The translations under genes were made by a program, and so were the position numbers. From assembly GCF_900107455.1 (NCBI RefSeq), contig NZ_FNQB01000002.1:310001-374000 (forward strand): a DNA stretch of 64,000 nt. Direction: 5' to 3'. The notes below the pieces were generated by a model. The model saw nothing but the letters and a program-made list of their open reading frames with translations, was not told where the DNA came from and did no database searches. Positions within the stretch are counted from its first letter, which is position 1; the number at the start of each line of letters is the position of its first letter. Positions 7,457 through 10,680 of the stretch are shown here, piece after piece. The stretch comes from Asanoa ishikariensis (GTDB lineage Bacteria > Actinomycetota > Actinomycetes > Mycobacteriales > Micromonosporaceae).

Positions 7457-7490
7457 TGGCCGGCCCGGCTAGCGCCAGCCGGGCCGGCCA
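7457..7490 (+). terminator. GC-rich hairpin ending the accessory operon
   Basis: A 14-bp perfect stem with arm TGGCCGGCCCGGCT and loop AGCGCC, 120 bp after the stop at 7335. There is no U-tract. The remaining bases of the 7336-7573 gap show no further feature I can name. Confidence 0.6.
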
Positions 7491-7573: not shown

Positions 7574-7579
7574 TAGCGT
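7574..7579 (+). promoter_or_regulatory. -10 box (TAGCGT) of the phoH operon
   Basis: TAGCGT, then 6 nt, then ATG 7586 of the small upstream ORF; there is no room for a 5' leader. Confidence 0.55.
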
Positions 7580-7585
7580 CTAGCC

Positions 7586-7735
7586 ATGGCGAGGGGTCAT
7601 CCCACGCCAGCCGGCCGGCCTGGACCTGCGACGACATCGCCACGGGGCCCGCATCCGACCCCGTGCTCCCGGGCACCGGACGAGGCGGAAACACGCGGGC
7701 GGTCCGGGTGCACGCTCGCCGGAGCAGGCCTGTGA
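7586..7735 (+). CDS. small leaderless ORF overlapping phoH (candidate phoAT antitoxin)
   Basis: 49 codons, ATG 7586 to TGA 7735. It begins 6 nt after a -10 box and its stop overlaps the phoH GTG in the classic GTGA arrangement, so phoH would be translationally coupled to it. In mycobacteria phoH2 is preceded by an overlapping small gene (phoAT) proposed as its antitoxin; by position this is the equivalent. The peptide is Pro/Gly/Arg/Thr-rich and low in complexity, and its third-position GC bias is weaker than in neighbouring genes. It may therefore act as a leader whose translation matters more than its product. Confidence 0.5.
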
Positions 7736-9120
7736 CAACTGCGCGCACCACTTCCCGGGCCACCCAGGACACCACCGCGACCGGTCGCGCCCCGCGCGGG
7801 CGCAAGGCCGCCGCGAAGGAGGACGGGCCACCTAGGCCGGTCTACGTCCTGGACACCTCGGTCCTGCTGTCCGACCCTGCCGCATTTCGCCGCTTCGCCG
7901 AGCACGAGGTCGTGCTCCCGCTGGTGGTGATCACGGAACTGGAGGGCAAGCGTCACCATCCCGAGCTCGGCTGGTTCGCGCGGCAGTCGCTGCGCATGCT
8001 CGACGAGCTGCGGATCAAGCACGGTCGGCTGGACCAGCCGGTGCCCATCAACGACCTCGGCGGCACGCTGCGCGTCGAGCTCAACCACTCCGATGACGGT
8101 GTGCTGCCGCCCGGTTTCCGCAACGAGTCCAACGACGCGCGGATCCTGTCGGTAGCCCTCAACCTCGCCGGCGAAGGTCGTCAGGTCACGCTGGTCAGCA
8201 AGGACATGCCGCTGCGGGTCAAGGCCGCCGCGGTCGGGCTCGCCGCCGACGAATATCGGCACGGCCAGGCCAGCGACCCGACCTGGACCGGCATGGCCGA
8301 GATCGAGGTGGGCGACGACGAGGTCAACGAGTTGTACGGCGGTGCCGACCTGGCCCTGGACGCGGCGGCCGAGCTGCCCTGTCACACCGGCCTGGTGCTG
8401 CACTCGTCGCGCGGCTCGGCGCTGGCCCGGGTGCTGCCGGACAAGGTGGTCCGGCTGGTCCGGGGCGACCGTGAGGCGTTCGGCCTGCGTGGCCGGTCGG
8501 CCGAGCAGCGGATCGCACTCGACCTGCTGCTCGACGAGTCGATCGGGATCGTCTCGCTGGGCGGCCGGGCGGGCACCGGCAAGTCGGCGTTGGCGCTGTG
8601 CGCGGGGCTGGAGGCGGTCATGGAGCGCCGCCGGCACAAGAAGGTGATCGTGTTCCGCCCGCTCTACGCGGTCGGTGGCCAGGAGCTCGGCTACCTGCCG
8701 GGCAGCGAGACCGAGAAGATGTCGCCGTGGGCCCAGGCGGTCTTCGACACGCTCGGCGCGGTGGTGCACGAGAACGTCCGGGAAGAGGTGCTCGGCCGCG
8801 GCCTGCTCGAGGTGCTGCCCCTGACCCACATCCGCGGCCGGAGCCTGCACGACGCGTTCGTCATCGTCGACGAGGCACAGTCGCTGGAACGCGGGGTGCT
8901 GCTCACCGTGCTGTCCCGGATCGGCCAGGGCTCGCGGGTCGTGCTCACCCACGACGTCGCCCAGCGCGACAACCTGCGGGTGGGCCGGCACGACGGCGTC
9001 ACGGCGGTCATCGAGGCACTCAAGGGGCATCCGCTGTTCGCGCACGTGACGCTGACCCGCTCGGAGCGCTCCGCCATCGCCGAGGTGGTCACCGACCTGC
9101 TGGAAGACATCCCCAACTGA
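7732..9120 (+). CDS. phoH2: PhoH2: PIN ribonuclease fused to PhoH ATPase
   Basis: 462 residues. The N-terminal PIN nuclease domain (about 36-165) has acidic residues at YVLDTSVLL (Asp41), [18 protein letters not shown] and SKDMPLR. The C-terminal PhoH-type P-loop ATPase (about 245-460) has Walker A GRAGTGKS (Lys284), Walker B VIVDEAQ (Asp380-Glu381) and THDVAQRDN as sensor. Mycobacterial PhoH2 proteins of this architecture unwind and cleave RNA. GTG 7732 has GGAG 7 nt upstream and overlaps the stop of the small ORF; the longer GTG 7663 reading lies inside that ORF. A strong bidirectional hairpin follows. Confidence 0.93.
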
Positions 9121-9164: not shown

Positions 9165-9755
9165 TCACTTCCGCACGGCGTACCGCAGATGCGTCACGCG
9201 GTTGCCCTGGATCGTCTCCAACGGACCGTCCAGCAGGACCGGCCTGGTGCCCAGTTGGTCGAAGAACGGTGTGCCGCCGCCGAGCAGCACCGGCACGAGG
9301 TCGATCCAGACCTCGTCGACCAGTCCCGCGTCGAGGGCCTGACTCGCGATCCTCCCGGAGTTGAGCCCGACGCCCTTGCCGCCGGCGAGCTCGCCCGCCC
9401 GCGCGATCGCGGCCTCGATGCCGCCGGTCTCGAACGCGAACCACTTGTTGTCCTCGTACCCCGTGGGCGGGTTGTGGGTGAGCACCACGGTCGGTACCTC
9501 CATCGGGTGCATTCCGCCCCACCCGTTCGTGAAGTCGAACAGCTTGCGGCCGACGACCAGGGCACCGAGCTCGTCCAGCCAGCGCTCGTTGCGGTCGGCG
9601 CTGGCCCGCGTCATGTGCCAGGTCATCTCGGGGTTGCCGGTGGGCACCGTGACGTCTCCGTTGTCGTACCAGGCGAACAGATGCTCGAACCCGGTCTCGC
9701 CGGGGCCCGAGACGAAGCCGTCGATCGACATGCTGGCGCCAGTGCTGACCTTCAT
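9165..9755 (-). CDS. RibD C-terminal / dihydrofolate reductase-like protein
   Basis: 196 residues. Full-length match to the RibD_C/DHFR-like family common in actinobacteria: N-terminal MSIDGFVSGP, LVVGRKLFDF, VVLTHNPP, and the NADPH-loop-like GKGVGLNSGRIASQAL, ending with VPVLLGGGTPFF. These are small NADPH-dependent reductases with mostly unknown substrates; some support folate or riboflavin metabolism. Start ATG 9755 has an AGGAGGAG Shine-Dalgarno. It is a single gene, convergent with phoH2. Confidence 0.85.
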   Translation of the reverse strand: MKVSTGASMSIDGFVSGPGETGFEHLFAWYDNGDVTVPTGNPEMTWHMTRASADRNERWLDELGALVVGRKLFDFTNGWGGMHPMEVPTVVLTHNPPTGYEDNKWFAFETGGIEAAIARAGELAGGKGVGLNSGRIASQALDAGLVDEVWIDLVPVLLGGGTPFFDQLGTRPVLLDGPLETIQGNRVTHLRYAVRK

Positions 9756-9879
9756 CGCTCGCTCCTCCTGAGGTTCTGACTCTGTCTGCCCATGCGTCGT
9801 CCGAGGGGGCCGCGGATCGACAGGTTACGGAAACCTTTTTTCTGGCGTGCCGCTTCGTCGGACTTACCCGCCTTTAACC

Positions 9880-9895
9880 CGTGACCCAGATCACA
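9880..9895 (+). promoter_or_regulatory. CRP/Cmr-like palindrome upstream of the wall-hydrolase gene
   Basis: GTGA-CCCAGA-TCACA fits the actinobacterial CRP pattern (GTGA-N6-TCAC) about 110 bp before GTG 10006. In M. tuberculosis the CRP protein Rv3676 controls the wall hydrolase rpfA, which makes the position notable. The rest of the 9756-10005 gap shows no other named element. Confidence 0.5.
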
Positions 9896-10005
9896 CAATG
9901 GTCTCCCTATTTCCCTCCCGGCTCACTGTGCGCAATGGTGTCTGGCGAGCGAACGAGGCCCTGGACGCCGGGGCTGTCCTTGTCCCCGACGAAGGGAACG
10001 ACTTC

Positions 10006-10680
10006 GTGACTCGGCTGTGGAGCCGGTTCGGGGTTCGGGCGTTGGCGGTCGGCATCCTCGTTATCGGGGTGGGCGGCGGCTACTACCTGGGCCACGACCG
10101 AAGGGTCCAAGAGCAGGGGATCGATACGCGGTTCGCCGCGGAGGCCCAGCAGGCGGAAAACGCGCTGCTCAAGGAGCACCATCTCGAGCACGAGTCGATG
10201 ATGGCCCAGCGCCGGGACGCCGAGAAGGTCGCCGCGCAGCGCGCCCAGGTCGCGGCCAAGGCGGCTGCCGAGCGGGCCAAGCGGGCCGAGGAGGCCAGCC
10301 GCAAGAAGCGCGAAGCGGCCGAGGAGCCGGTGAAGGCCAAGCCGTACGACGGTCCGATCCCGGCGTCGTGCAACGAGTACAGCGGCAACCGCAAGATCGG
10401 CTGCGCGCTGCTGCTCGAAGAGGGCTTCAAGATCGACCAGATGCCGTGCCTCGACAAGCTCTGGACGCGCGAAAGCGGCTGGAACCCGAAGGCGCACAAC
10501 TCGAGCTCCGGAGCGCACGGCATCCCCCAGGCCAAGCCCGGCAACAAGATGGCGACCGTCGGCGACGACTGGGAGACCGGCGCGGCCACCCAGATCAAGT
10601 GGGGCCTCGGCTACATCGAGGGCCGCTACGACGACCCCTGCGGTGCGTGGGCGCACTCGGAGGACGAGGGCTGGTACTGA
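10006..10680 (+). CDS. exported lytic-transglycosylase-like cell-wall protein
   Basis: 224 residues. An N-terminal membrane anchor or uncleaved signal (about 9-29), a long Ala/Glu/Lys-rich coiled coil (about 35-110), then a lysozyme-like domain of about 100 residues with LWTRESGWNPKAHNSSSGAHG (the Glu is the probable catalytic acid) and AAT(Q)IKWGLGYI. Such proteins cleave peptidoglycan glycan strands at the cell surface. GTG 10006 has GAAGGGA upstream; ATG 9898 is in frame but lacks a ribosome-binding site. A CRP-like site lies upstream and a strong terminator follows. Confidence 0.8.
   Translation: MTRLWSRFGVRALAVGILVIGVGGGYYLGHDRRVQEQGIDTRFAAEAQQAENALLKEHHLEHESMMAQRRDAEKVAAQRAQVAAKAAAERAKRAEEASRKKREAAEEPVKAKPYDGPIPASCNEYSGNRKIGCALLLEEGFKIDQMPCLDKLWTRESGWNPKAHNSSSGAHGIPQAKPGNKMATVGDDWETGAATQIKWGLGYIEGRYDDPCGAWAHSEDEGWY

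Follow-up and report, generated by a model that had tools for sequence, protein, structure and literature searches.

The window analysed here, a stretch of 64,000 nucleotides from the 9.09 Mb genome of Asanoa ishikariensis (Micromonosporaceae), carries a phoH2 gene on its forward strand (7732..9120) that starts with GTG at 7732. The product matches PIN_4 (E 2.8e-25) and PhoH (E 3.3e-47) in Pfam and is, by these matches, a PhoH2-like protein in which an N-terminal PIN domain is fused to a PhoH helicase domain. A Shine-Dalgarno sequence, GGAG (7721..7724, forward strand), lies seven bases 5′ of the GTG, and none of the 17 columns that cover it and the start (7720-7736) varies in the genus. Further upstream, the sequence TAGCGT (7574..7579, forward strand) has the form of a -10 promoter element. 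It is invariant in the genus, as are all 11 columns from 7574 to 7584 in the aligned genus genomes, and 34 of 35 family rows have a TAnnnT box, mostly TAGCGT, in the corresponding position, L180 being without it. The box is real in this comparative sense, and transcription is predicted to start some seven bases past it, at about 7586. Six bases separate TAGCGT from an ATG at 7586, a spacing that fits a leaderless start.

The interval between promoter and phoH2, called the leader in the following, contains two more GTG codons in frame with phoH2 (7663 and 7708); automatic annotation could place the phoH2 start there and so mask the leader. A near-perfect inverted repeat (7457-7490, TGGCCGGCCCGGC...GCCGGGCCGGCCA) with no T run lies in the gap that separates the phoH2 promoter from the small gene 5′ of it; a search of the genome returned this repeat as a 94% self-match on the opposite strand. 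On the other side, phoH2 adjoins a RibD_C-like reductase encoded on the reverse strand (9165-9755; PF01872, E 3e-7), and nearby, on the forward strand, 9847-10680 gave an SLT transglycosylase match below threshold (E 0.041). A similar SLT-like sequence, read by eye, terminates just 5′ of phoH2 at locus L028.

The initial annotation had described a 49-codon ORF in the leader (7586..7735, forward strand) and proposed that it encodes a PhoAT-type antitoxin or is translated to gate PhoH2 synthesis. The elements it listed are all there: TAGCGT, the ATG, 49 codons and a TGA (7733-7735) overlapping the GTG, so that a small ORF indeed lies directly 5′ of phoH2 and overlaps it. However, its length is no more than expected by chance, since a frame of 48 codons remains open in 67% of trials under an order-1 Markov model of the leader and in 50% of trials with the composition of the first 20 kb of the window. 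The overlap of TGA and GTG arises because phoH2 begins with GTGAC, and any open frame in that register stops there. GC by codon position is 0.73/0.84/0.71 in the ORF and 0.76/0.45/0.93 in phoH2; the pattern of the ORF is unlike that of phoH2 and therefore not coding-looking. A Pfam search of the peptide gave no match.

Comparison with relatives points in the same direction. The region is present in all six genomes of the genus, and both the window and its closest relative keep the frame open, but one base is missing near 7690 in four of the five same-genus relatives and the frame is therefore out of register with the GTG. A frame broken in close relatives is what the initial annotation itself had named as refuting its proposal. 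Nor did the synonymous substitutions that it suggested looking for appear in excess: variable sites before the indel are distributed 1/4/5 over the codon positions of the genus alignment, which is no third-position excess. Among 25 family loci, the distance from ATG to GTG ranges from 137 to 153 bases and falls into the three frames 9/6/10 times; among the 150 of 184 family matches listed, the frames are 60/49/41. At 10 of the 25 loci the ORF continues in frame into phoH2, where it could pass for an N-terminal extension of PhoH2, and at five, four of them from the same genus, it runs on out of frame for 236-1445 bases beyond the phoH2 start, something hardly expected of a conserved translated leader. 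From frame, Pfam and chance tests we judge that the ORF is no conserved protein gene; with a frame broken in the genus and near-even across the family, a PhoAT-like protein was rejected as the conserved function.

What is conserved is the leader as such. Between 7585 and 7731 the genus alignment has 146 gapless columns, of which 11 vary. Immediately 5′ of this stretch the count is 32 of 132; the opening codons of phoH2 have 23 of 104, and its body has 206 of 1280, with 164 of these 206 at third positions. The leader varies about three times less than its flanks and is the most conserved of the stretches compared. Covariance models describe it as an RNA that includes the Shine-Dalgarno sequence and the first phoH2 codons (7585..7736, forward strand); the window scores 128.1 bits with model R1, 127.5 bits with R2 and 115.9 bits with R3. 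R1 was built from 12 sequences, its seed alignment (A3) having taken 12 of the 25 family loci.

For an assessment of the fold, 51 diverse family members were realigned with R1 (A7; 51 of the 62 rows of A5, with L180 and ten near-duplicates left out and a spurious second match in L161 excluded by a stricter threshold). In this alignment, whose model already contained the stems P1, P3 and P5 and thus leans towards them, 18 of 38 pairs have changed on both sides, as against 5-6 with slid partners and 7.3 ± 1.6 in shuffles, and none of 500 shuffles reached 18. Paired cells amount to 93.4% versus 26-47% after sliding, and 66 cells have changed on both sides versus 5-9. The stems P1, P3 and P5 are maintained through compensatory changes across the 51 family members. 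P3 (7641..7665; CACGGGG...CCCCGTG with loop GCATCC at 7651-7656) has six of seven pairs changed on both sides and 98.6% of cells paired, and its compensatory pairs are also seen on a plain MAFFT alignment (GC 21/AU 4 and GC 23/AU 1). P5 (7695..7719; loop GGGTGC at 7706-7711) has five of seven pairs changed on both sides with 97.4% of cells paired. In P1 (7586..7609; 7587-7595 with 7601-7609, mismatch 7592/7604), seven of ten counted pairs have changed on both sides and 84% of cells are paired, two of the ten pairs failing in most sequences (34 of 51 and 30 of 48). Its first pair joins the T of the ATG at 7586 to the A at the end of P1. An ATG or GTG is kept in 48 of the 51 sequences; in the three that lost the start codon by a change of T to C, the partner A has become G every time, turning U-A into C-G.

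Two further hairpins on the same strand, P1b (7611..7623; CCGG...CTGG) and P4 (7669..7679; CCGG-GCA-CCGG), are nearly invariant, with 99% and 93.5% of cells paired in A7 and, in P4, no both-side changes; they are suggested by conserved complementarity. RNAalifold on a MAFFT alignment of 25 sequences gave only three covarying pairs, did not find P5 and, in preference to P1b, paired the P1b region over a long range with the Shine-Dalgarno region. The fold of the window sequence from 7585 to 7760 is not unusually stable (z = +0.76; 155 of 200 shuffles as good).

The loops of P3 (GCAYCC) and P5 (GGGUGC) are complementary in 94.7% of A7 cells. No both-side changes occur at this contact in the family, and slid versions equal its covariation score. 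By eye, several Actinoplanes-type sequences, L018 and L021 among them, have an extra A in one loop together with an extra U in the other, but in L020 and L025 only the U has been added. Among the mycobacteria, a single pair of the contact has gone from C-G to U-A in three sequences and fails in ten. From complementarity, then, a P3-P5 loop-loop contact is likely. A rival pairing, in which the P4 strand meets the P5 loop, has 88.5% of cells paired without any both-side change and was set aside as less supported. P5 ends one base 5′ of GGAG. The 3′ strand of P1b can pair with the Shine-Dalgarno region in 94.7% of cells, with one pair changed on both sides (5 cells), and could mask this region, which would make it a possible switch.

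Within the family, R1 matches 184 of 250 genomes and 25 of 44 genera, with one copy each. Full phoH2 is missing in eight family genomes, and a ninth (G062) has part of it; none of the eight has an R1 match at E ≤ 0.001, the nearest being a weak match in G007 (E 0.0013). The probability of finding no leader match in these eight is p = 1.7e-5, a value that ignores relatedness. In 33 of 35 rows checked, two of which are duplicates (L168 of L029, L177 of L032), the leader ends at an in-frame phoH2 start; in L159 phoH2 is in a different frame, and L180 has no phoH2. Most of the 66 genomes without an R1 match do have phoH2, and they apparently do without such control. Of 20 phoH2 loci that are R1-negative (no match at E ≤ 0.001), eight have a TAnnnT box at a distance of five or six bases 5′ of the ATG of phoH2 itself, five of these boxes being TAGCGT; the remaining 12 have a different start arrangement. 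Absence of the leader thus coincides with leaderless phoH2, which suggests that the 5′ end of the leader is the transcription start. The apparently leaderless phoH2 loci of family genomes are L264, L265, L267, L270, L271, L274, L275 and L278; L028 and L030 share the leaderless-type arrangement. Two of the other 12, G042 and G045, have chance-level R1 matches (E 0.28 and 0.25) some 270-340 bases 5′ of phoH2, possibly from a leader that has diverged.

Beyond the family the signal weakens. An order-wide search with R2 matched 73 of 397 genomes, 67 from the own family and six from two other families; the six matches (E 3e-4 to 5e-3) all lie just 5′ of phoH2, and R2 also matches Geodermatophilaceae loci (E 1e-5 to 3e-3). 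R3, which was trained on some of these other-family and Geodermatophilaceae loci, matches 18 of 71 phoH2-locus sources. At E ≤ 0.1, all 17 of its matches outside the window are on the right strand and 5-208 bases before the PIN motif. Four of them, three from Geodermatophilaceae and one similar locus, were outside the training and reach 5e-10 to 1e-6; the others, including Nocardia L059, are weak singly (0.0019-0.089). Among the mycobacterial sources one of 13 has an R3 match (L203, E 0.01). A9 took 40 of 41 sources, L065 being below threshold. A crude hairpin picker applied across the order often picked wrong hairpins and was excluded from the counts. Elsewhere in the order, mycobacteria included, weaker homologues appear to stand ahead of phoH2; outside Geodermatophilaceae and the two families with R2 matches, they were identified by weak E-values and reading by eye. 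A class-wide R3 search matched three of 246 genomes, all from the own family, with Mycobacterium-like genomes among the misses, and nothing is shown for the leader outside its own order.

At many out-of-family loci, a short ORF led by GGGAGG crosses P3. Among the 63 loci listed, the peptide RGPAPGPR is exact in 11 (e.g. VTEQLSARGPAPGPRIA) and present as a near variant in about 14 more; Geodermatophilaceae and others use a different reading frame across P3. Such Shine-Dalgarno-led uORFs are possible translation-sensing leader peptides. The window leader has no GGGAGG-led start, and a translated uORF may have belonged to the ancestral leader. The loci with the RGPAPGPR uORF are L059, L065, L089, L239, L240, L241, L243, L250, L251, L253 and L259. 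L075, L084, L086 and L059 have Rfam matches to the ASdes sRNA at distances of about 0.7-2.5 kb from phoH2. The name of ASdes refers to desaturase antisense, so these phoH2 genes may have a desaturase gene nearby.

The mycobacteria are of special interest, since the initial annotation had drawn its analogy from them. According to that annotation, mycobacterial phoAT overlaps phoH2. At 32 mycobacterial loci, 147-165 bases separate the box from a GTGAC-type start, and the first dozen codons of the ORF that follows TAGCGT are mostly kept (MASDMLCCPGGT-like). This ORF, which we take from its position to be the published phoAT, resembles that of the window in sitting between a TAGCGT-type -10 box and the GTG of phoH2 and in that it can end in a GTGA overlap. 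In contrast to this likeness, the ORF frame is not conserved here, and among 30 scored mycobacterial loci (L213, where a different start was picked, and L221, which has no box, were left out) the GTGA overlap is found in only 15; four share eight bases and 11 end elsewhere. The full-length PhoAT protein is, by this comparison, not well conserved in mycobacteria.

When 31 of the 32 mycobacterial leaders were aligned (A8; L212 left out), 99.5% of cells were paired in P3, 93.4% in P5 and 90.3% in the loop contact, and 95.1% over the whole fold, compared with 33-55% after sliding. Both-side changes are modest, with five pairs and 18 cells versus six pairs and 12 cells at a slide of +1. These pairing figures suggest that the same structured leader RNA probably underlies the mycobacterial phoAT locus, too. 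The phoAT analogy thus holds by position and, it seems, at the level of the RNA, but not for a conserved frame at the locus studied here. In M. tuberculosis, the 5′ UTR of Rv1095/phoH2 is given as 210 nt in Table 8 of PMC3207917, with UTR/CDS abundance ratios of 4.7 in exponential and 11.9 in stationary phase, and the authors regarded high ratios as indicating candidate riboswitches. What is reported there is, as here, a transcribed and abundant leader before phoH2; in the excerpts of that paper at hand, length and abundance are given, and no fold, homologues or covariation for phoH2. For phoAT itself, a short gene 5′ of phoH2 and co-transcribed with it, the product is reported to bind PhoH2 and to relieve its effect on growth (PMC7390352, PMC4826407), and these reports stand against a purely RNA-based view in mycobacteria.

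Altogether, a conserved, covarying, promoter-proximal leader is tied to a single gene. In the genomes searched it occurs in single copy, has phoH2 behind it in every case with an identified neighbour and did not turn up where phoH2 is lacking, which makes it most likely a dedicated cis-regulator. We are fairly confident that this interval forms a 5′ leader on phoH2 mRNA, has a conserved fold and most likely acts in this way on PhoH2 synthesis, presumably by cis-control of phoH2 translation; a protein antitoxin is not needed here. The suggestion that a leader gates PhoH2 stands as far as the leader is concerned, but the conserved thing is an RNA fold and no peptide. According to this model, the first approximately 146 nt of the transcript would fold into a string of hairpins, and the fold beside the Shine-Dalgarno sequence could set how often ribosomes start on phoH2. 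It is tempting to speculate that PhoH2, an RNA helicase and RNase, restrains its own translation by binding, unwinding or cutting its leader, possibly by way of a P1b strand that alternates between its own hairpin and pairing with the Shine-Dalgarno region. The element serves a gene for an RNA helicase-RNase, and none but this gene was seen behind it; on these grounds, autoregulation by PhoH2 is the mechanism we consider likeliest, although we put it at somewhat less than an even chance.

Of the rival explanations, one holds that translation of the leader matters and not the peptide: ribosomes that start at the leaderless ATG or at a Shine-Dalgarno-led uORF would unfold P3, and the phoH2 start would become exposed or hidden as a result. 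The retention of ATG or GTG in 48 of 51 family sequences and the frequent crossing of P3 by a GGGAGG-led ORF outside the family argue for it, and there are published precedents for control by uORFs, both in riboswitches of mycobacteria and in a toxin-antitoxin operon of E. coli (PMC11260477, PMC12121999). However, the frame fuses to PhoH2 at 10 of 25 family loci and overruns its start out of frame at five, and the window leader lacks GGGAGG. In addition, the pair was retained in the three sequences that lost the start codon; the T would be kept because it pairs with A, which counts against translation. We regard this explanation as unlikely.

Metabolite riboswitches usually serve several genes of one pathway. 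The phoH2 leader, in contrast, has one copy per matched family genome, its matches with an identified neighbour precede phoH2, and no Rfam family matches at the leader. A ligand-binding riboswitch in control of phoH2 therefore seems doubtful, despite the conserved hairpins, the conserved GCAYCC loop with its complement in P5 and the high UTR/CDS ratio in M. tuberculosis together with the hint of its authors at riboswitches (PMC3207917). Quite improbable, in our estimation, is that excess structured leader RNA is itself the true antitoxin, which would bind or occupy PhoH2, be it as inhibitor or as substrate, in addition to throttling its translation; the 4.7- to 11.9-fold UTR/CDS ratio reported for M. 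tuberculosis would allow such a reading. If it were true, the leader RNA, acting in cis or in trans, would account for the relief credited to the PhoAT protein, and PhoH2 would be an RNA-restrained (type III-like) system across this actinobacterial order.

That a PhoAT-type antitoxin protein encoded at 7586-7735 neutralises PhoH2 is very improbable. Its position matches the reported phoAT (PMC7390352, PMC4826407), its overlap agrees with what the initial annotation says of phoAT, and the frame is open in the window and the closest relative, but with breaks in four of five same-genus genomes, near-even frames in the family, fusion to phoH2 at 10 of 25 loci, no Pfam match, no third-position bias and a GC pattern that is not coding-like, it is already refuted as a conserved function as far as sequence comparison can tell. 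An ordinary promoter and Shine-Dalgarno region without RNA function can be practically dismissed: these signals explain part of the conservation, but the 147 intervening bases are more conserved than coding sequence and covary as stems, and compensatory changes far from both signals already speak, on comparative grounds, for refutation.

The conserved leader RNA takes the place of a guessed toxin-antitoxin gene and gives a handle on the control of PhoH2, a widespread RNase-helicase of poorly known role. It also makes a published claim testable, namely whether mycobacterial PhoAT acts as a protein or its effect stems from the underlying leader RNA. In Rfam 15, the window gave no match at gathering score, and in 16 related loci no leader match was found, ASdes being the only hit and located elsewhere; known RNA families were thus rejected as candidates. 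Guanidine-III (13.2 of 36 bits, below gathering) was rejected because its score is at chance level and other hairpins are supported. A description of a phoH2 leader RNA was not found in the openly licensed literature, among the matches listed. The family appears to be new, although structured mRNA leaders as a kind are already known.

One of these, the Actino-pnp RNA motif RF01688, precedes what we take to be the gene of an RNA-degrading enzyme. It is likewise a structured leader from actinobacteria (PMC2864571), but it belongs to a different gene, and Rfam gave no match to it in the window or in the 16 other loci. The proposed mechanism resembles that of the autoregulatory leaders of RNA-binding proteins, for example ribosomal proteins (PMC7247131), in which a structured leader is combined with a gene product that binds RNA. 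From these, the phoH2 leader differs in lying outside Rfam and in serving a helicase-RNase, which would be the putative ligand of its own messenger.
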